Shown: piece after piece, positions 122-12,713 of the stretch
How the letters are laid out: every line of letters starts with the position of its first letter
How positions within the stretch are numbered: position 1 is the stretch's first letter
Position numbers and translations under genes: made by a program
Assembly (NCBI RefSeq): GCF_027531545.1
Contig: NZ_JAPZSC010000007.1
Coordinates: 1-64,000, forward strand
DNA length: 64,000 nt
Reading direction: 5' to 3'
Source: Silanimonas sp.
GTDB taxonomy: Bacteria > Pseudomonadota > Gammaproteobacteria > Xanthomonadales > Xanthomonadaceae
The notes under the pieces: generated by a model
What the model saw: the letters and a program-made list of their open reading frames with translations, nothing else
Databases searched by the model: none
What the model was told of the DNA's origin: nothing

Positions 122-140
122 TTTTCAGTCGGCGGTGACA

Positions 141-635
141 CTTCCGCACGATGTCACCAAGTCGCCCAACTGGCGACGAGCCTCCGGGAACGCGATTAAG
201 CTCGTGATTGACCTCGCATCACAATTCAACGGAACGAACAACGGGGATCTTTCCGCCCCGTTCTCGTCCATGAAGGCGCGCGGCTGGAAATCGTCAGGGA
301 CACTCAAGCGGGCCGAACAGGAGGCCTTGCACTACGGGCTGATCGAGAAAACGCGTCAGGGCGGCCTGAACTGCTGCAATCTCTATGCACTCACGTGGAA
401 ACCCATTGACGAGTGCAAAGGGAAGCTTGATGTCAGTCCAACGCGGGTTGCTAGCGGGGCCTGGCGAACGGACGCTCCGCGCTTCGAAAACAAAGCGCCA
501 GTTCGGAAATCGAACATGCCCAATGCTGTTTTCGGACCAGTGAGGCTAAAGGATGCCCGAGCGCAACATCGAATTTCGAACAAGTCAAACGCTTTCTCGG
601 TGACTGATCAGTTCGAAAATCGAACGCCTTTATAG
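141..635 (+). pseudogene. 5'-truncated winged-helix-like hypothetical gene, cut by the IS21 end
   Basis: The ORF track opens this frame at GTG 135, but that codon lies inside the IS terminus, so native coding starts at about 141. The residual frame (about 164 codons) contains an N-terminal segment (KSPNWRRASGNAIKLVIDLASQ, then FNGTNNGDL, then LKRAEQEALHYGLIEKTRQGG) that looks like a winged helix-turn-helix of the sort found in small island and plasmid proteins. The C-terminal third is basic and low in complexity. Base composition is visibly less GC-rich than the chromosome beyond 10.3 kb. Translation could restart at an internal GTG or ATG, so a shorter product is possible. Function is unknown; the fold guess is inference from sequence pattern only. 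Confidence 0.55.
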
Positions 636-1732: not shown

Positions 1733-4570
1733 TCAGCTCTTGGTGCGAGTCCCCGAAGAGTGCGCAGTTATGACATCTTGAGTGAGCGCCGGATCGAACA
1801 GCACATCCACCGCCCACCGACCGAACCCACCCTTCTGATTGACGCCTTGCACCCACGCGGACAGCGCGGCACGCTTGGCGCGATTCTGGTCGTCGTCCAC
1901 ACCCTTGATCTCAAGCACCAGCGTGACGCTGTTCTTCAAGCGCACGAGAAAGTCCGGAATGAATCGACGGCGTGAGCCGCGCCACATGTAGTAGATCTGG
2001 AAGCCGAGGTGATCATTCTTGGCGTAAGCGCTGACCAGCGGCGAGGACTCGAGCACGTTACAGACGTGCCCCTCCCATGCGCTGTCGCCCACGACATGGC
2101 TGATCTGGGACTTCACCGTCTCGATCCTCGGGCGTGTCGTGAACCACGTCCGCATGTCGCGGGTGGATCCGATCGGAGCGCCCTCGTCGAAGATCAGCTC
2201 GATGCGCTCGGCGTTGTGCTCGTCCACGTAACGCAGCAGGTGGGCGACCACGCGATCCAGATTCAGGGAGATCAGAACGCGTCGACGCACTGGCTCCTGG
2301 TGGAACAAACCGGGGATCTCGAGGCGATCGGACGCGAGGAACTGCTCCACGAGCCGGACGAGCTGGGTCAGCAGGTAGTCCGTCGAGCCGCTGAAGCGCT
2401 GGCGGAGTTGGTCGGCCGCCTTGCGGGCAGCAAGGAAAATCAGCCGCTGCAATCGGAAAGCCTCGGGAATCGCCGCAAGGTCCACGGTATGGATCTTGCT
2501 CCAGTCGGTCGCCCCGCCCAGCGCGGGCGCGAACTCGGCCGTGATCGGCGTGTTCTGCGGTTCGAGCGCGAGGACGTCCACCTTCTCCCACGGCACGACC
2601 AGTTCGGGTCGGACGATGGGGTCGACGCGGAGGACATTGGGCCAGCGGATCTCGTACTCGCCCCGCTCCTTGAGCGATTCGATCTGGGTGCTGTTTTTCG
2701 GTGGCGGCGGCGCTTCGCCGCCCTCGCCCACGTCCTGGAAGATCGACAGCGGTACGCCGAACACGTTCACGTACTCAGGTAGGAAAAGCTGCCGCTCGAC
2801 GCCGTCCGGCCCGATCACCGGCTCTGTGTCGTAGCTCACGCGGCGCAGGCCTCGGCCGATCACCTGCTCGCAGAGCAACTGGCTGGTGAAGGCACGCAGG
2901 CCGAGGATGTGGGTGACGTTCTTGGCGTCCCAGCCCTCGGAGAGCATGGCGACCGAAATCACCTTCTGCAGGTTCTGGCCGGCCGTTCCCCGTTTGCCGA
3001 CGTTGTCGACGATGGCCCGGAGAATGTCCTCCTTCTTCTCGCTCAACAGCGCCTCGCGGCGATCGATGGGCAGGCCCGAGGCCTCCACGATCTGATGCAG
3101 CCTCGCCTCGTAGTCCTTGTCGGCCGCAGCGGCCTCGCCAATCTCAGCCTTCTCCAGCACCTTGGAGTCCACCCGGAGCGTCCGGGTGGGCGCCTGTAGT
3201 TCCGGCCAGTGGACGTCGCCTCGCTTGAAGTAGTGCTCGATACGCGCCGCTGTCTCCGTCCGGTTGCAGACCGTCAGCATCACGGGGGGGGCTGGATGCC
3301 CGGCCTCCTTCCACTGGCGGGCCGTCTCGCGCCAGTCCGCCCCTAACAGCGTGTAGGCGTCCTGGACAAGCTGAGGCAACGGATCGGTAGGAATCGCTCC
3401 CTTGCGGTTCAGGTCCTCCCCCACCTCCTTCTCGCGATAGAGGTGGTAGAGCTTGGGCTTGAGCGTGGCGGCGTTTGGCACCGCGCCATCACGGACCACC
3501 ACGCGCGGCGTCTTCACTAAGCCGGCCTCGATGGCGTCGTTCAGGCCGAAATCCGAGATGATCCAGTCGAACAGGCCCTCGTCGGTGTTGGTCCGCCCTG
3601 TCGGCGCAAAGGGCGTCGCGGAGAGATCGAAACAGCGAATCAGGCGGCGGGTCTTGTGGATCCGGTCGAGCCCTTCGATCCAGCGGGTCGCCTCCTCGAG
3701 GTCGATACCCCGCTCTTCGGCCTCTTTCTTGCTGATCTTGAGGTCGGCCGGCTTCCGGTAGGCGTGGTGTGCCTCGTCGTTGATGACGATCAGATCCTTG
3801 TACCCAGCGACCTTGCCCAGCACGCGGCGCGTATAGGCCTCGTCGGACTCCTTGCCCTTGCGGACGACGCTGCGCTCCTGCTCCTTCGCTGGCATCAGCG
3901 TGTGCCAGTTCTCGATCAGCACCTCGGCCTGATTCAGTCGCTGCCGGAGCGTGTCACTGGGGCACAGGTGGAACTCGTCGTAGGCGTTGGCCGTGTTGCC
4001 CGGCTGGAGCACCTGCAGGCGCTCGCGCACCGTCAGGCCGGGCGCAACGATGAAGATGGCTCGGCTGAAGTCCTTGGTTCGCTTTGGGTAGGTCAGCGCG
4101 TTCAAGACCTGCCACGTGATGATCATCGCCATCACGGTGGTCTTTCCGCTGCCGGTCGCCATCTTGTTGCAGAGGCGCTCCCACGCCCCGCCGTCGCCGG
4201 GCACGTGGATGCCCTGCTTGAACTCCGGCGCCGACTCCACCCACCAGATCAGGGTTTCGATGGCCTCGAGCTGGCAGAAGTAAAAGGGCAACGTGCGGGC
4301 CGAGGCGTCGTGCCAATGTGCCAACAGGTCGCGCGTTACCGAGGTGACGCCGGGGTGGCCGGCCTCCCGCCACGCGTCCACGCGTTCACGGATGCGGTTG
4401 ACCTGATCCAAGGTCTCCACGCGCTTGGTGTTGTTGCGCGTGTCGATGACCTCGTAGGACGCCGGCCGCCGCCCGTGGACGAGCGTCAGCGTGGTGCCTG
4501 CCCCTTGCTGCCAGTGGAAGGCCGGGCGTTCGTAGGGCGAATTGATGATCAGCGAGCGCGGCGTAGTCAC
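1733..4570 (-). CDS. res: Type III-like restriction enzyme Res subunit (helicase-nuclease)
   Basis: A 945-aa superfamily 2 DNA translocase with a C-terminal nuclease. The Walker A motif is ATGSGKT at about residue 140, DEAHH (Walker B/motif II) at about 262, SATPF (motif III) soon after, and the motif VI-like segment QVIGRGLRR near the middle. The C-terminal PD-(D/E)xK-type nuclease core (PDFLVRL...LVLEIKG) sits near residue 870. Res subunits hydrolyse ATP, move along DNA and cut unmethylated sites together with the Mod subunit. The nuclease arrangement resembles the BPTD_3080-type family more than EcoP15I (recalled, not searched). The start codon is GTG and overlaps the stop of the upstream ATP-binding gene as GTGA, indicating translational coupling. 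All key motifs appear intact. Confidence 0.9.
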   Translation of the reverse strand: MTTPRSLIINSPYERPAFHWQQGAGTTLTLVHGRRPASYEVIDTRNNTKRVETLDQVNRIRERVDAWREAGHPGVTSVTRDLLAHWHDASARTLPFYFCQLEAIETLIWWVESAPEFKQGIHVPGDGGAWERLCNKMATGSGKTTVMAMIITWQVLNALTYPKRTKDFSRAIFIVAPGLTVRERLQVLQPGNTANAYDEFHLCPSDTLRQRLNQAEVLIENWHTLMPAKEQERSVVRKGKESDEAYTRRVLGKVAGYKDLIVINDEAHHAYRKPADLKISKKEAEERGIDLEEATRWIEGLDRIHKTRRLIRCFDLSATPFAPTGRTNTDEGLFDWIISDFGLNDAIEAGLVKTPRVVVRDGAVPNAATLKPKLYHLYREKEVGEDLNRKGAIPTDPLPQLVQDAYTLLGADWRETARQWKEAGHPAPPVMLTVCNRTETAARIEHYFKRGDVHWPELQAPTRTLRVDSKVLEKAEIGEAAAADKDYEARLHQIVEASGLPIDRREALLSEKKEDILRAIVDNVGKRGTAGQNLQKVISVAMLSEGWDAKNVTHILGLRAFTSQLLCEQVIGRGLRRVSYDTEPVIGPDGVERQLFLPEYVNVFGVPLSIFQDVGEGGEAPPPPKNSTQIESLKERGEYEIRWPNVLRVDPIVRPELVVPWEKVDVLALEPQNTPITAEFAPALGGATDWSKIHTVDLAAIPEAFRLQRLIFLAARKAADQLRQRFSGSTDYLLTQLVRLVEQFLASDRLEIPGLFHQEPVRRRVLISLNLDRVVAHLLRYVDEHNAERIELIFDEGAPIGSTRDMRTWFTTRPRIETVKSQISHVVGDSAWEGHVCNVLESSPLVSAYAKNDHLGFQIYYMWRGSRRRFIPDFLVRLKNSVTLVLEIKGVDDDQNRAKRAALSAWVQGVNQKGGFGRWAVDVLFDPALTQDVITAHSSGTRTKS

Positions 4571-6450
4571 GCTGATCCCTCCGATAGGTTGACTCGTGTT
4601 CGGTAAGCCTGCTCCGGGTGGCTACGGTTATCTGGATACCGAAGCTCCAGCAGGCCCTCGTCAGCCAGCTTTGCGACGTAGCCATCGCGTAGCGTTTCAG
4701 GTGTTCGCCCTAGCAGCTCGGATAGTTCGCGGACACTTAAGAACCGCGCCGAGCAGAGCCGCAGGATAGTGGCGCGCACCAGTCCTGCCGGTGCCTTTCC
4801 CATCTCCCGCACGCGGGTAGCGAGATCCAGGAGCGCGCGATCCCCATCATCGCCCGTTTCCGGTGGGGCCAAATCCGGGGGGCTCGAGGCCAAATCCGGG
4901 GGGCTCGGGGCCAAATCCGGGGGGCTCGGGGCCAAATCCGGGGGGCTTCCACCGAGAAGGTAGCGGGTTCCGCGAGTACGGCCTTCTGGGCGCAGCAGCC
5001 CATCGCGCACCAGGCCCTGAAGCATACGGGTGATATCCACGCTGTGCATGACTAGCATGTCTTGCAGGCGCTGGTTGGTGACCACCCCCTCCTCCAGTGC
5101 TGTCACCAGCGCTTGGATCTCGTCACCGGTGCGCGCGAGTACGCCTTGACCGAATCGTCGGTCCAGCTCGGTCACTGCCTCCTCGGGAAGGGTACTCACC
5201 ATCGGAAGGGTGAGTTGCACCCGATCGGGCGAAGTGGTCTCGGCGATGCTTGGCGATTGCCAGCGCTGCTCCTGCCAACTCTTGCGGATCTTGTCGATGC
5301 CCGAACCGGCTTTATCGCCCGCACCAAGCATCTGGAACATCTTCTGCAGTGCAGGATTGCGGCATTCGCTGACGCCCCCCTGAAGCAACTGCGCACGCGA
5401 AAGCAGTAGCGTTCCCGGATTAGAAAACTCGAAGCGATCCAGGTAGCGGTCGATCACCACTCCACCCTGTCCGCTGTAATCAGCGTGGATCAGCGCATTG
5501 ACCAACGCCTCCTGTAACGCCTCGTGTACCGGTGTGGCGCTTCGCCGATAGCCTTCTTCATCCCGCTGAAAGGGCCGCCTTAGGCCCGGTCCCGCGCTGA
5601 GGCTAACCATTACTCGTTGGTAGAACTGGAACAGATTCCCTTCCCAAGTCCCGTCCAGCGTGATGCGGTCGCTCCACCGCACATCGGGGGAGTCGGCAAG
5701 GCGCTCGCGGTAATCCAAATGGAAACGCGGCCGCGCTCCTGGATCGCGAATCGCCAACTCCTGACCGAACATCAGAAGCCCGGCGACGGTGAGCCCCTCC
5801 TTGCCTGACTGACGGTCTCGTCGGAACCCACCAAGGCGCAGCAAAAGTCCAACATCGTCTTCGACCAGCCAGGCGTGATTGGGGAACGAGACGCTGAAGC
5901 GCGCGCGGAACTGCCGAAGCGATTCCGCATGCAAATCGTTGAACCCAAACCCCTCAAGGATGCGTCCGTCCGCGGGTTCATCCGATTGGTCGGCAAACAT
6001 ACGCCGCACTTCGTCATCGGTGCAGCGGTAGTCCCCGTCGTGGTTGCGTCGGTACGTGCCGGAGAACGGATTGGGGCCGACATGCACAGGCCGCTCCCTG
6101 CGGCTCGCTCGCGGCACGACGATGCAGACAAGGTGACGCCGTTCCGAAGGGTCCTCGATGACCCTGACCGACTCCTCAGAGAGAAGGTTGGCACTGATCT
6201 TCTGTCTATTGTTCGCAAGATTGAAGATTTCAGCCCGGATCTTTTGGGGCTCTGGTACGCCCTGAACGACCGGCACGCCGTTCTTCTCAGCGACACCGAG
6301 CCAGATCGTGCCACCCCCGGAGTTCGCAAAGGCGCTGTAGGTCTCCCAAAGGCTGGCGGGAAGCCCACCTGCGGCGGACTTGTATTCCACATCGACGCCT
6401 TCGTACAGCGAAAACTCATCGAAAAGTGAAAGCTGTTGGGTCGGGCTCAC
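4567..6450 (-). CDS. AlbA_2 (Schlafen-like) ATP-binding protein embedded in the R-M operon
   Basis: A 627-aa protein. Residues about 15-60 (EYKSA...LWETYSAFANSGGGT) match the AlbA_2/Schlafen DNA-binding domain. Residues about 300-400 (PVHEALQEALVNALIHADY...NPG...GSGIDKI) match the HATPase_c_4 GHKL-type nucleotide-binding domain usually found with it. The C-terminus is winged-helix-like. A four-copy heptapeptide repeat (SPPDLAP) forms a linker near residues 500-528. Proteins of this class are annotated as ATP-dependent helicase-like or transcriptional regulators, and many occur in defence islands. It overlaps mod upstream and res downstream by GTGA on each side, so it is made in step with both. 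It may regulate the R-M system or be a functional third subunit; the sequence does not decide. Confidence 0.85.
   Translation of the reverse strand: MSPTQQLSLFDEFSLYEGVDVEYKSAAGGLPASLWETYSAFANSGGGTIWLGVAEKNGVPVVQGVPEPQKIRAEIFNLANNRQKISANLLSEESVRVIEDPSERRHLVCIVVPRASRRERPVHVGPNPFSGTYRRNHDGDYRCTDDEVRRMFADQSDEPADGRILEGFGFNDLHAESLRQFRARFSVSFPNHAWLVEDDVGLLLRLGGFRRDRQSGKEGLTVAGLLMFGQELAIRDPGARPRFHLDYRERLADSPDVRWSDRITLDGTWEGNLFQFYQRVMVSLSAGPGLRRPFQRDEEGYRRSATPVHEALQEALVNALIHADYSGQGGVVIDRYLDRFEFSNPGTLLLSRAQLLQGGVSECRNPALQKMFQMLGAGDKAGSGIDKIRKSWQEQRWQSPSIAETTSPDRVQLTLPMVSTLPEEAVTELDRRFGQGVLARTGDEIQALVTALEEGVVTNQRLQDMLVMHSVDITRMLQGLVRDGLLRPEGRTRGTRYLLGGSPPDLAPSPPDLAPSPPDLASSPPDLAPPETGDDGDRALLDLATRVREMGKAPAGLVRATILRLCSARFLSVRELSELLGRTPETLRDGYVAKLADEGLLELRYPDNRSHPEQAYRTRVNLSEGSA
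4867..4950. repeat. 21-bp in-frame tandem repeat, four copies
   Basis: The unit GGCCAAATCCGGGGGGCTCG plus one base is repeated from 4867, 4888, 4909 and 4930, the first three nearly identical and the fourth diverging at its end. It encodes PPDLA(P/S)S heptads in the minus-strand AlbA_2 gene. The unit length is a multiple of three, so copy-number change would lengthen or shorten the linker without a frameshift. Confidence 0.9.
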
Positions 6451-9400: not shown

Positions 9401-9731
9401 CGGCGGCGGGCTGTGCCTTGGCGCGCTTGGCATCGGCCAGCGTCATCGCCGCCTGCTTCGGTTTCGGCGCCTTGGCCGCCTCCGGAACGGCCTGGGGCGT
9501 CAGCGACAGGGCCTCATCCCCGGCCGCGGTGCGGGCGACGGAGCCCCCGCGCCCCTTGCCCTTCACCAGCCGTCCGGCGTCCACCAGTGCCTGCTGGGCC
9601 TCGAAGTACTCGGCTTCGGAAACCTCGCGGCCAAGGTGGTCGGAGAGCGCCTTGCGGAGCGATCCATTGCCGATGGTGGTGCCATCGGCCGGGACGAGGG
9701 CGTAGAGGGTGTCGGTCAGGTCCTTGGACAT
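6447..9731 (-). CDS. mod: Beta-class adenine DNA methyltransferase (type III-like Mod)
   Basis: A 1094-aa site-specific methyltransferase. Motif IV is DPPYG at about residue 303 and the SAM-binding motif DPTCGSGT lies near 600. IV before I is the beta-class order used by type III Mod proteins, which make N6-methyladenine. About 300 residues between them hold the target recognition region. The first 70 residues look like a winged helix, followed by a lysine/alanine-rich linker; about 400 C-terminal residues follow the catalytic half. It is the first gene of the operon and overlaps the ATP-binding gene by GTGA. The stretch of roughly 7960-8660 is visibly less GC-rich than the rest of the gene. 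A 10-bp repeat array lies 80 bases before the ATG. Confidence 0.9.
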   Translation of the reverse strand: MSKDLTDTLYALVPADGTTIGNGSLRKALSDHLGREVSEAEYFEAQQALVDAGRLVKGKGRGGSVARTAAGDEALSLTPQAVPEAAKAPKPKQAAMTLADAKRAKAQPAAGKKTEDDATVLSYRHRETRKNNPEVGMVTPDTDADAGTTRWAYDPHLDPVLNFDVGRAQIESLVDDALASGDADTMRQALESLKRMAMPYLHWTGKAERTSFAVDTVSLHVHERIDPATILGVIRKRMKDAPSGTGQGDFFRAWFEEPLAWREAIEFYKHDRGWANRLVAGDSLLVMNSLLQKEGMAGQVQMIYFDPPYGIKYGSNFQPFVNKRDVKDRKDEDLTQEPEMIKAFRDTWELGIHSYLTYLRDRLLLARELLSESGSVFVQISDENVHLVRNVLDEVLGTSSFCSMIVAQKTTGAGSPAIGTEVTASVVDYVLWYAKDRSRVKYLPQFDEKLLGEEGTTQYKFVVDEIGEDRRLSQTEIAGGDVALASVFAPDNMTSQSAGETTTFTFVDQGMPFSPSKGGWKTNKLGVSRIVKAKRIKAFGNTPMYKRFLRDFPVSPINNLWRDVLITGFSETKTYVVQTSQKIVERCLLMTTDPGDLVLDPTCGSGTTAFVAEKWGRRWITCDTSRVAVTLAKQRLMTASFDYYALKYPHDGLRGGFIYKTVPHVTLKSIANNPDIDTLWDKHQPAVDVALAKLNTALKATKAPAFTITEGGWKGKAVDFSTSGKSRTLPSGETVPADALLEWEVPFDTPTAWSEDVGRLLDIFHAARQVRQRAMDDSIAAHAEQETLYDQPQVDKNKLRITGPFTVEAVPFPTVKALDEAAPPAEADSSVAREGESSRQHQWRAELVKTGVRGKGGQMLKLSDLEPLPDTRYLHCTGTAAESGERVVVSFGPEHAALEQRQVELAMREAGDLFPRPKMILFCAFTFDPEAAKDIDATKGITALKVQMNTDLLTEDLKKARSNNQSFWLMGQPDVELRQRKDGQWEVEVHGFDYFDPTSGELVSGGKGKIAAWSLDTDYNERSLFPRQVFFPMAGAKDGWHKLKKDIKAELDERLIEHLHGTVSLPFEAGENRKVAVKIVDDRGIESLKIMELK

Positions 9732-9810
9732 AACGGCCTAATGCAGAGTGCTCTAGGGAGCCCCGGAAGACCGTCGAGCCATCCGTGGCCAAGGCCTCGA
9801 GCATACCCGT

Positions 9811-9900
9811 TGAGGACTCGCGAGGACTCGCGAGAGGTCGCGAGAGGTCGCGAGAGGTCGCGAGGGGTCGCGAGGGGTCGCGAGGGGTCGCGGAAGGCTC
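9811..9900. repeat. 10-bp tandem repeat array upstream of mod
   Basis: Eight consecutive 10-bp units occupy 9811-9890 in three sub-families: (T/C)GAGGACTCG twice, CGAGAGGTCG three times and CGAGGGGTCG three times, then a degenerate ninth unit. Each junction creates the palindrome TCGCGA or a close variant. The array begins 80 bases upstream of the mod start codon, in DNA with no convincing gene. The period is close to one helical turn, so a bound protein would sit on one face. Slippage here could alter promoter spacing for mod. Confidence 0.9.
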
Positions 9901-10158
9901 TGCATTCGACGGCGTCTCCACACGGAGCATTTTCTCGGCTCACGCAGTTGGCATTTTTTCCACACCTCAGCCGACAACTTCACAGATGAATTACCGCGAG
10001 CCTGTGCGCGCGGACCGCAGCGCGACCTGAGGCGCCTGCCCCATCCTGGTATCGACCAAACGTCAGCACCGACTCGATTCACCCAAGCTGATCGATGGTC
10101 TCGGAGTCGCCCCCATGTATCCTCGACGTACCCTAGACCTGACCCAGCAGGCCTTACG

Positions 10159-10179
10159 TGGGGGCATTTTTGGGGGCAT
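10159..10179. repeat. TGGGGGCAT direct repeats at the island edge
   Basis: TGGGGGCAT occurs at 10159-10167 and 10171-10179, 12 bases apart; the reverse complement of its core (GCCCCCAT) occurs near 10109-10116. Such repeats resemble arm-type binding sites of tyrosine recombinases near attachment sites. They fall where the low-GC island gives way to chromosomal genes. Role inferred, not shown. Confidence 0.4.
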
Positions 10180-10265
10180 CTCGCACCATCAACTCAGCAG
10201 GAGTTGCGCAGTTACTGCCTCTCCGGCTCAAGTTCGAGTGACGCCACCACCATCTCCACCACGCG

Positions 10266-10295
10266 ACCCGCCGAAAGGCGGGTTTCGTGTTTTCA
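10266..10295 (+). terminator. Intrinsic terminator, plus-strand orientation, with no plus-strand gene in front
   Basis: ACCCGCC-GAAA-GGCGGGT (10266-10283) is followed by TTCGTGTTTT. The T-rich side faces the plus direction, yet no plus-strand gene ends before it. A short CCACCA-ending stretch at about 10244-10261 precedes the hairpin. It may be the leftover 3' end and terminator of an RNA gene used as an integration target, or simply a bidirectional terminator for the convergent EAL gene. Confidence 0.6.
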
Positions 10296-12713
10296 GCCGG
10301 CCTTGCGCTGGCCCGGATCACCGCCGAAGCGCTTCGAGAACACCTCGGCCGTCAGTGCGGGCGCCATCAGCCAACCCTGCATCTCGTGGCAGCCGGCCGC
10401 GTGCAGGAGCTCGCGCTGGGCTTCGGTCTCAACGCCTTCCGCGGTGACGGACAACCGCAGTGCGCGACCCATCTGGATGATCGCCACCACGATGGCCTCG
10501 CTTTCCGCGCTTCCCGGCAGGTCGGCGATGAAGCTGCGGTCGATCTTGATGCGCTCGATCGGGAACCGCTTCAGGTAGGACAGCGACGAGTACCCCGTGC
10601 CGAAGTCGTCGATGGCGAGGCGCACGCCCAGGGCGCTCAGCGCCGTGAGGCGGCGCATGGCGTCCTCGACGTCGGAGATGAGGATGGATTCGGTGAGCTC
10701 CAGCTCCAGTGCTTCGCCCGGCAGGCCGTGGCGGCGCAAGCCCTCGGCGACGGACTCGACGAAATCACTCTGGTGGAACTGCAGGGCGGAGACGTTGACG
10801 GCCACGGCGACGCACAGACCGGCGCGCCACCACTCGCTCAACTGGGCCAGCGTCGTATCGAGCACGAAGCGGCCGAGCGGGATGATCGCACCGCTTTCCT
10901 CGGCGACCGGGATGAAGCGCCCCGGCGAGACCGCCCCGAGCTCGGGGTCGTTCCAGCGCACCAGCGCCTCGGCACCGATCAGGCTGCGGTCTTCGATGCG
11001 GAATTTCGGCTGGTAGTGGACCTCGAGGGCCCCTTCGACCAGCGCATGCCGCAAGGCATGGTCGAGCTTCATCCGCGAGAGGAGGCCGATGTTCATCTGC
11101 CGCTGGTAGAAGCGGAGGTCGGCCCGGCCGCGCTCCTTCACCGCGTACATCGCGCTGTCGGCGTTCTTGGTGAGCTCGTCGGCGTCGGCGCCGTCTTCCG
11201 GGTACATGGCGATGCCGATCGAGACGGTGAGGGTGAAGCTCATCCCGTCGACCACCACCGGCTGGGAGATGGCATGCAGGATGCGCCGCGCCGCGACCTC
11301 GGCCCCGGCGGCATCGACGCCGGCGAGGATCAGGATGAATTCGTCGCCGCCGACGCGCGCGGCCGTGTCCACCTGGCGCACGCATTCCTGCAGGCGCTCG
11401 GAGACACTCACCAGCACGCGGTCGCCGAAGCCGTGCCCCAGCGAGTCGTTGATCTGCTTGAAGCGGTCGAGGTCGAGGAACAGCACCGCGAAACTGCCAC
11501 GCTCCCGCTTCGCGTAGTTGATGGCCATCTCGAAGCGTTCGCGGAGCAGCACGCGGTTCGGCAGGCCGGTGAGCGGGTCGGTGAACGCCAGCTCCTCGAT
11601 GCGCTGGCGCGCCGCCATCGCCTCGCTGAGGTCCTTGGCGAAGCCGATCATGTGCAGGGTGCCCCCCGCGTCATCCGCGACGCGCACCAGGGACAGCAGG
11701 CAGGGGTACGGAGAGCCGTCGTTCCGGCGTGTCCACAGCTCGCCCTGCCAGTAGCCCTCATGCATCAGGGCCTTCCGGATGGCGCGCGCCTGGGCGCGCG
11801 ATGCCACGTTCGAGAGCAGCGAGGCGGCCGGCTTGCCCTCGATCTCGGCGGACTGCCAGCCGGTCTGGCGCTCGAAGGTCGGGTTTGCCGCCACCATCCG
11901 GAAGCGCGCGTCGGTGACGAAGATCGCGTCGAGGCTGGATTCGAAGACGCGTGCGGCGAGTTTGAGACGGGCTTCGTCGGCAAGCCGCTGCGTGATGTCT
12001 CGGAACGAGAACACGCGGCCGATCGGGCGTCCGCGCGCGAACTGTGGGAGCGTCACGCGCTCGAGCACCCTTCCGCTGCGCAGCACGAGCACGTCGTCGG
12101 CTTCGAGCAGGGGCGCGCGGGAGATCTGCCCCATGCGGTCGCGGTAGCCCTCCGCGTCGCGCACGTGCTCGGTGAGCCAACCGAAGATGGCGGCGTCGTT
12201 ACGCTCGCTTAGCATCGACTCCGGCAGGTCCCAGAGCTCGGCGAAGCGCTGGTTGAAGCCGCGGATGCCACCGTCCATGTCGACCACGAGGATGCCGTCG
12301 GCGGTGGATTCGAGCGTGGCGCGCAGCTCGGCGATGATGTTCTCGAGCTGCTGTTCGGCGCTGCGCTGCTCGCTGCGGTCGACCATCGCCACCATGTAGA
12401 CGGCGGCGCCCTGCTCGATCTGCACGAGGCTGACGCGACGCTCGATCTGGCGGATATCGCCGTTGCCGCGTTTGAGCAGGGTCTCCGAGCGGATGGCACG
12501 GGAGCGGCCGGCGGCCACGTCTTCCCAAAAGAACAGATCCTGCGATGTGGAGGCGAAATCGACCACAGGGCGGCCAACCAGCTCCGCGCGCGGCAGGCCG
12601 ATCATGTCCTCGGCGGCACGGTTGACCGCGAGGATGCGCAGGTCGACGGCGTCAACGAGCCAGACGGCCTCGATGACGCTCTCGATCAGCATCTGCGGCA
12701 ACTTCGCCGTCAT
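10293..12713 (-). CDS. PAS-PAS-PAS-GGDEF-EAL cyclic-di-GMP signalling protein
   Basis: An 806-aa soluble sensor. Three PAS-like segments fill about residues 1-390, then a diguanylate cyclase domain with intact GGDEF (near 456), then a phosphodiesterase domain with EALVRW (near 584) and DDFGTGYSS (near 702). Both active-site signatures look intact, so it could make or degrade c-di-GMP, with PAS ligands setting the balance. No membrane segments are seen. The ORF track starts 17 codons earlier; I choose ATG 12713 because it overlaps the HD-GYP stop as ATGA and gives a normal N-terminus. Cotranscription with an HD-GYP enzyme suggests shared control of one c-di-GMP pool. Confidence 0.92.
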   Translation of the reverse strand: MTAKLPQMLIESVIEAVWLVDAVDLRILAVNRAAEDMIGLPRAELVGRPVVDFASTSQDLFFWEDVAAGRSRAIRSETLLKRGNGDIRQIERRVSLVQIEQGAAVYMVAMVDRSEQRSAEQQLENIIAELRATLESTADGILVVDMDGGIRGFNQRFAELWDLPESMLSERNDAAIFGWLTEHVRDAEGYRDRMGQISRAPLLEADDVLVLRSGRVLERVTLPQFARGRPIGRVFSFRDITQRLADEARLKLAARVFESSLDAIFVTDARFRMVAANPTFERQTGWQSAEIEGKPAASLLSNVASRAQARAIRKALMHEGYWQGELWTRRNDGSPYPCLLSLVRVADDAGGTLHMIGFAKDLSEAMAARQRIEELAFTDPLTGLPNRVLLRERFEMAINYAKRERGSFAVLFLDLDRFKQINDSLGHGFGDRVLVSVSERLQECVRQVDTAARVGGDEFILILAGVDAAGAEVAARRILHAISQPVVVDGMSFTLTVSIGIAMYPEDGADADELTKNADSAMYAVKERGRADLRFYQRQMNIGLLSRMKLDHALRHALVEGALEVHYQPKFRIEDRSLIGAEALVRWNDPELGAVSPGRFIPVAEESGAIIPLGRFVLDTTLAQLSEWWRAGLCVAVAVNVSALQFHQSDFVESVAEGLRRHGLPGEALELELTESILISDVEDAMRRLTALSALGVRLAIDDFGTGYSSLSYLKRFPIERIKIDRSFIADLPGSAESEAIVVAIIQMGRALRLSVTAEGVETEAQRELLHAAGCHEMQGWLMAPALTAEVFSKRFGGDPGQRKAG

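Follow-up and report, generated by a model that had tools for sequence, protein, structure and literature searches.

A 10-bp tandem array upstream of the mod gene of a restriction-modification operon is best read as a recent, private minisatellite in the leader region of mod, for which we infer an origin by slippage and the absence of a conserved function; we place the probability of this reading at slightly above one half (roughly 0.55). On the same reading, the array belongs to a known kind of element, the intergenic minisatellites of G+C-rich bacteria, and any effect that it has on expression would be at most incidental. Positions given below are those of the window, by which we mean the whole stretch of 64,000 nucleotides that was analysed, and the features under discussion are collected in Table 1.

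The array consists of GAGGACTCGC twice, then GAGAGGTCGC three times and GAGGGGTCGC three times; these eight units in three ordered sub-families agree exactly, and in the same register, with a preliminary description made from the sequence alone. That description placed the array at 9811-9900, an interval that does contain it but in which 9811 and 9892-9900 already belong to the flanks. Tandem Repeats Finder delimits the repeat at 9818-9892, with period 10, 7.5 copies, 93% matches, no indels and a score of 115. The TCGCGA junctions that had been noted are present, although there are seven of these palindromes and not eight: they span 9818-9883, with starts at 9818, 9828 and so on to 9878, and the position following the last of them reads TCGCGG. 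Substitutions among the units, of which there are only about four, all lie in the 4-bp linker and leave the TCGCGA core intact, and the strict 10-bp period sets all of the palindromes on the same face of the helix. Such an array is far beyond chance expectation: 800 kb of sampled DNA (400 kb of this genome, and 400 kb spread over four genomes of the family) contains no array that has a period of 6-11, five or more copies and matches of 90% or higher.

Table 1. Features of the window that bear on the interpretation of the array.
Feature	Position	Strand	Remarks
10-bp tandem array	9812..9891		8 units, blocks 2+3+3
9-bp inverted repeat AATGCAGAG/CTCTGCATT	9740-9748, 9898-9906		Brackets the array; compatible with chance
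TTTTCCACA, candidate DnaA box (TTWTNCACA consensus)	9956..9964	+	Lies in an AT-rich patch; no other match in the window
Two TGGGGGCAT repeats 12 bp apart	10159..10179		Candidate integrase arm-type sites
Right attachment junction of the island	10244..10289		From here on homologous to G002, where the ssrA 3' end is empty
mod, N6/N4 adenine methyltransferase, type III-like, 1094 aa	6447..9731	-	Pfam N6_N4_Mtase 1.3e-29; PADLOC MTase_III 3.2e-180
SLFN_AlbA_2 + HATPase_c_4 protein, 627 aa (AlbA/Schlafen-type ATPase)	4567..6450	-	Gene intermediate between mod and res
BPTD_3080-family restriction endonuclease, 945 aa	1733..4570	-	NCBIfam NF046055, 1131.8 bits (cut-off 800)
Candidate O-like initiator of the island, 166 aa, possibly truncated at its start by an IS end	135..635	+	TTCGRAAATCGAA-type repeats in 3' half, 483-624

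The array occupies the interval 81-160 bp before the ATG of mod, which fits the earlier estimate of about 80 bases; the start at 9731 is backed by homologues that align from residue 1-13. A TAG stop lies in frame directly upstream of this ATG. Thus, the array is not mod coding sequence, and the idea that it might form part of the mod reading frame is ruled out. The gene downstream of it is indeed a type III-like mod, as had been proposed, and is followed in the operon by the gene for the AlbA/Schlafen-type ATPase and then by the restriction gene. The pairing of mod with an NF046055 restriction gene, which recurs in relatives, makes this a BPTD_3080-family restriction-modification system; mod is 57-67% and res 69-77% identical to those of the relatives, and the genes form one operon. 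The system differs from its relatives in that the AlbA/HATPase gene, which is missing from the mod-res slot in these relatives, separates mod from res, and in that an array precedes mod. A search on BPTD_3080 in one literature library found no papers.

The cargo of the mod-res slot is variable (loci window 4567-6450, L089 3044-4068, L090 6840-8093 and L482 3177-4617): in genome G027 it is an AAA_21 ATPase, in G117 there are MqsR/MqsA-type toxin-antitoxin genes and in G026 an MqsA-like antitoxin, and the slot is empty in G045 and G375. The AlbA/HATPase gene of the window itself contains four copies of a 21-bp unit (4865-4947), in frame and encoding a heptad repeat of the PPDLAPS type, in which a change of copy number would preserve the frame. 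There is also a second mod in the genome (G000:C17:6333-9047, L092), which is more distant (48% identical over the best segment) and has its own restriction gene nearby.

Close homologues of mod, with 57-67% identity across the protein, were located in G026, G027 and G045 as well as on Sphingobium, Agrobacterium and Rhizobium plasmids. The array is absent upstream of five close homologues and upstream of some 40 distant homologues with a callable start that were drawn from a scan of public genomes. Nor do the homologues with a callable start, G026, G027 and G045 included, have any comparable tandem repeat in the 320 bp that precede mod: over this distance the window has an 82-bp run of period 10, and one homologue has a 10-bp run of period 5. 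G117 and G375 have no repeat near the mod start. This absence from homologues rules out the array as a conserved feature of mod promoters. The array DNA is single-copy in its own genome, and four TCGCGA at 10-bp spacing are found nowhere else in 397 genomes of the family; a survey of 274 genomes of the class gave two other, unrelated sites with three TCGCGA spaced by 9-11 bp, the period being 9 in each. Direct DNA matches to the array in phage and plasmid records were not found. The array thus seems private to this genome.

It is possible to envisage how such an array might have formed. A single 10-bp unit would have been duplicated by replication slippage or unequal recombination, the duplicated units would have gained a few substitutions, and single variants would then have been re-amplified in turn to give contiguous blocks of identical neighbours (A2-B3-C3). 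The observed pattern, AABBBCCC, is that expected from serial segmental duplication, and the suggestion that the ordered sub-families reflect such duplications is well matched by the contiguous 2+3+3 blocks. If transcription starts upstream of the array, the repeat would only lengthen and structure the leader. A precedent of sorts is found in G106, where two adjoining 9-bp minisatellites, CGCGACCCT in 4.9 copies and then CCCGACGGA in 6.7 copies, lie just upstream of groES (L394 1502-1603; groES/groEL identified from the translated sequence), demonstrating that unrelated intergenic places in genomes of the family do acquire such G+C-rich repeats. The CGCGACCCT minisatellite resembles the mod array in its short unit (9-10 bp, rich in G+C), its homogeneous blocks and its private position, but it differs in its gene, unit length and sequence, and the two sites lack homology. 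It should be noted that several observations sit less easily with a minisatellite: such arrays are rare in the genome (none in 400 kb), yet the narrow space before mod holds one; the substitutions spare the core; the period is strict, with the palindromes on a single helix face; and a DnaA-box consensus, the sole one in the window, lies at a distance of 65 bp.

Two functions had been put forward in the preliminary description, namely that the array presents aligned sites to a regulator and that its length polymorphism makes mod expression phase-variable. Neither has been borne out: promoters of homologous mod genes lack such a repeat, the array appears to be private, and a simple scan of 9600-10350, covering one promoter type, gave no sigma-70-type promoter that a change in copy number could re-space. 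It is nevertheless possible, if doubtful, that the array is a cis-regulatory element of mod, acting either as face-aligned TCGCGA operators for a regulator or through structure in the mRNA leader, and that it keeps mod in check once the island has been transferred. Its location before the ATG and the combination of a one-turn period with a palindromic core speak for such a role. The 261-nt leader RNA (minus strand) has a more stable fold than shuffled sequences (z = -3.7), although such stability is trivial for a palindromic array, and a 9-bp inverted repeat pairs beside the start region, although this is within chance expectation for 600 bp. However, no regulator presents itself, none of the relatives has the array, and TCGCGA occurs at chance level across the whole window (57 observed against 54.7).

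Known phasevarions have short repeats inside mod. Those of modA, modD and modH in Haemophilus and Neisseria are like the present case in that a tandem repeat accompanies a type III-like mod, but their repeats are of 4-5 bp and in frame, whereas here 10-bp units lie upstream of the ATG and do not constitute a frame switch. A phase-variable switch would in this instance have to act through slippage in copy number that raised or lowered mod expression. The block structure does imply earlier changes in copy number, and tandem repeats in promoters and in mod genes are known as switches in other bacteria (e.g. PMC2667262). On the other hand, the array lies neither in the reading frame nor between recognised promoter elements whose spacing it could change (no sigma-70-like pair, for the single promoter type scanned), and the homologues do without repeats; we therefore consider a switch of this kind improbable.

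The mod operon occupies the right-hand end of an island that has inserted at ssrA. In another genome of the genus, G002, the same place has an intact tmRNA gene followed directly by sequence that matches the window from 10244. In the genome under study, contig C51 has an intact ssrA followed by an integrase gene, which we take from its sequence to be of the P4 type, and a gene for an AlpA-like regulator. The two ends of the island, with an integrase beside an intact ssrA on one side and a second copy of the ssrA 3' end on the other, are those of an integrative island. Contig C51 and the contig of the window, C18, both terminate in similar GGTGGGTCAG-type sequence, probably the ends of one insertion sequence, and on the strength of these shared ends we infer that the two contigs were contiguous and joined through the IS. 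The TGGGGGCAT pair near the attachment junction is probably a set of integrase arm-type sites; similar repeats adjoin the integrase gene on C51. Among the genomes of the family, a search for right ends of related islands gave short matches only, and the array is in none of them save for the 9-bp look-alike of G106.

The island also encodes a candidate O-like initiator, related to the 'replication protein O' annotated in a 16-kb Pseudomonas element and matched in 21 of 170 genomes of the family, its own genome counted. Several homologues of this gene have other repeated 8-mers nearby. Such sequences suggest that each initiator gene may carry its own iterons. As the island gene carries TTCGRAAATCGAA-type repeats and its homologues also carry repeats other than TCGCGA arrays, the array is unlikely to be a binding site of the O-like protein.

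Arrays of TCGCGA are widespread in phages. Three TCGCGA at a 10-bp period are present in at least 120 phage stretches and, likewise, at an 11-bp period in at least 120; as controls, the palindrome ACGCGT gave 15 stretches and TCGCGA at a 14-bp period none. Examples among IMG/VR contigs are L129-L208 (10-bp) and L249-L328 (11-bp). A PHROG replication-initiation family is matched by 48 of 76 array-bearing phage proteins. The phage cores lie within genes, beside short purine-rich repeats (GGATCAA, GGAACAGG and GAAGGG). The simplest reading is that these arrays are origin iterons within lambda-O-like genes, and they seem to represent a common origin architecture. A search on TCGCGA iterons in the same literature library found no papers. 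Linkers in the 10-bp class are mostly R-N-N-Y, giving YTCGCGAR octamers, and GAGG and GGGG are not represented among the 242 phage linkers.

The mod array shares with these phage iterons a TCGCGA core at one-helical-turn spacing, with seven cores at 10 bp. It differs in having seven copies as against mostly three; in its linkers, six of the seven being GAGG or GGGG and only one fitting R-N-N-Y; and in its location, which is intergenic, between mod and the attachment site, and not within an initiator gene. A search of its own genome, run without a positive control, found no relative of the TCGCGA-type phage initiator. Core and period thus fit a phage O-type iteron, but the linker rule, the location and the missing cognate initiator do not. 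A more general suggestion is that the array, together with an AT-rich patch and a DnaA box, is a replication-origin element of the island or of a former replicon. We consider this unlikely, and it survives in weak form because the only DnaA-box consensus of the window lies so close to the array. That TTWTNCACA match is the sole one in 64 kb, where 0.37 would be expected per window, and it falls in the patch of lowest nearby G+C (0.48), but it was spotted after the fact. Arrays of TCGCGA at 10- or 11-bp period typify phage initiator genes and the element does encode an O-like protein; against this, the linkers violate the phage rule, the O-like gene has repeats of a different sequence, and the genome yielded no initiator of the TCGCGA type.

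Ectopic lambda origins block infection (PMC4488673). By analogy, it could be imagined that the array mimics a phage origin within a defence island, its TCGCGA sites titrating or sensing the O-like initiators of infecting phages and so blocking infection or changing mod transcription on phage entry; we regard this as highly improbable.

As found, the array is probably a neutral minisatellite. It carries a caution, in that a repeat before mod does not by itself make a phasevarion, and a comparison of relatives is a cheap first test. The phage TCGCGA arrays look more interesting than the array of the window itself. If the latter were functional, it would serve either as a promoter-borne switch or as a decoy for phage initiators, for a restriction-modification system on a mobile island.
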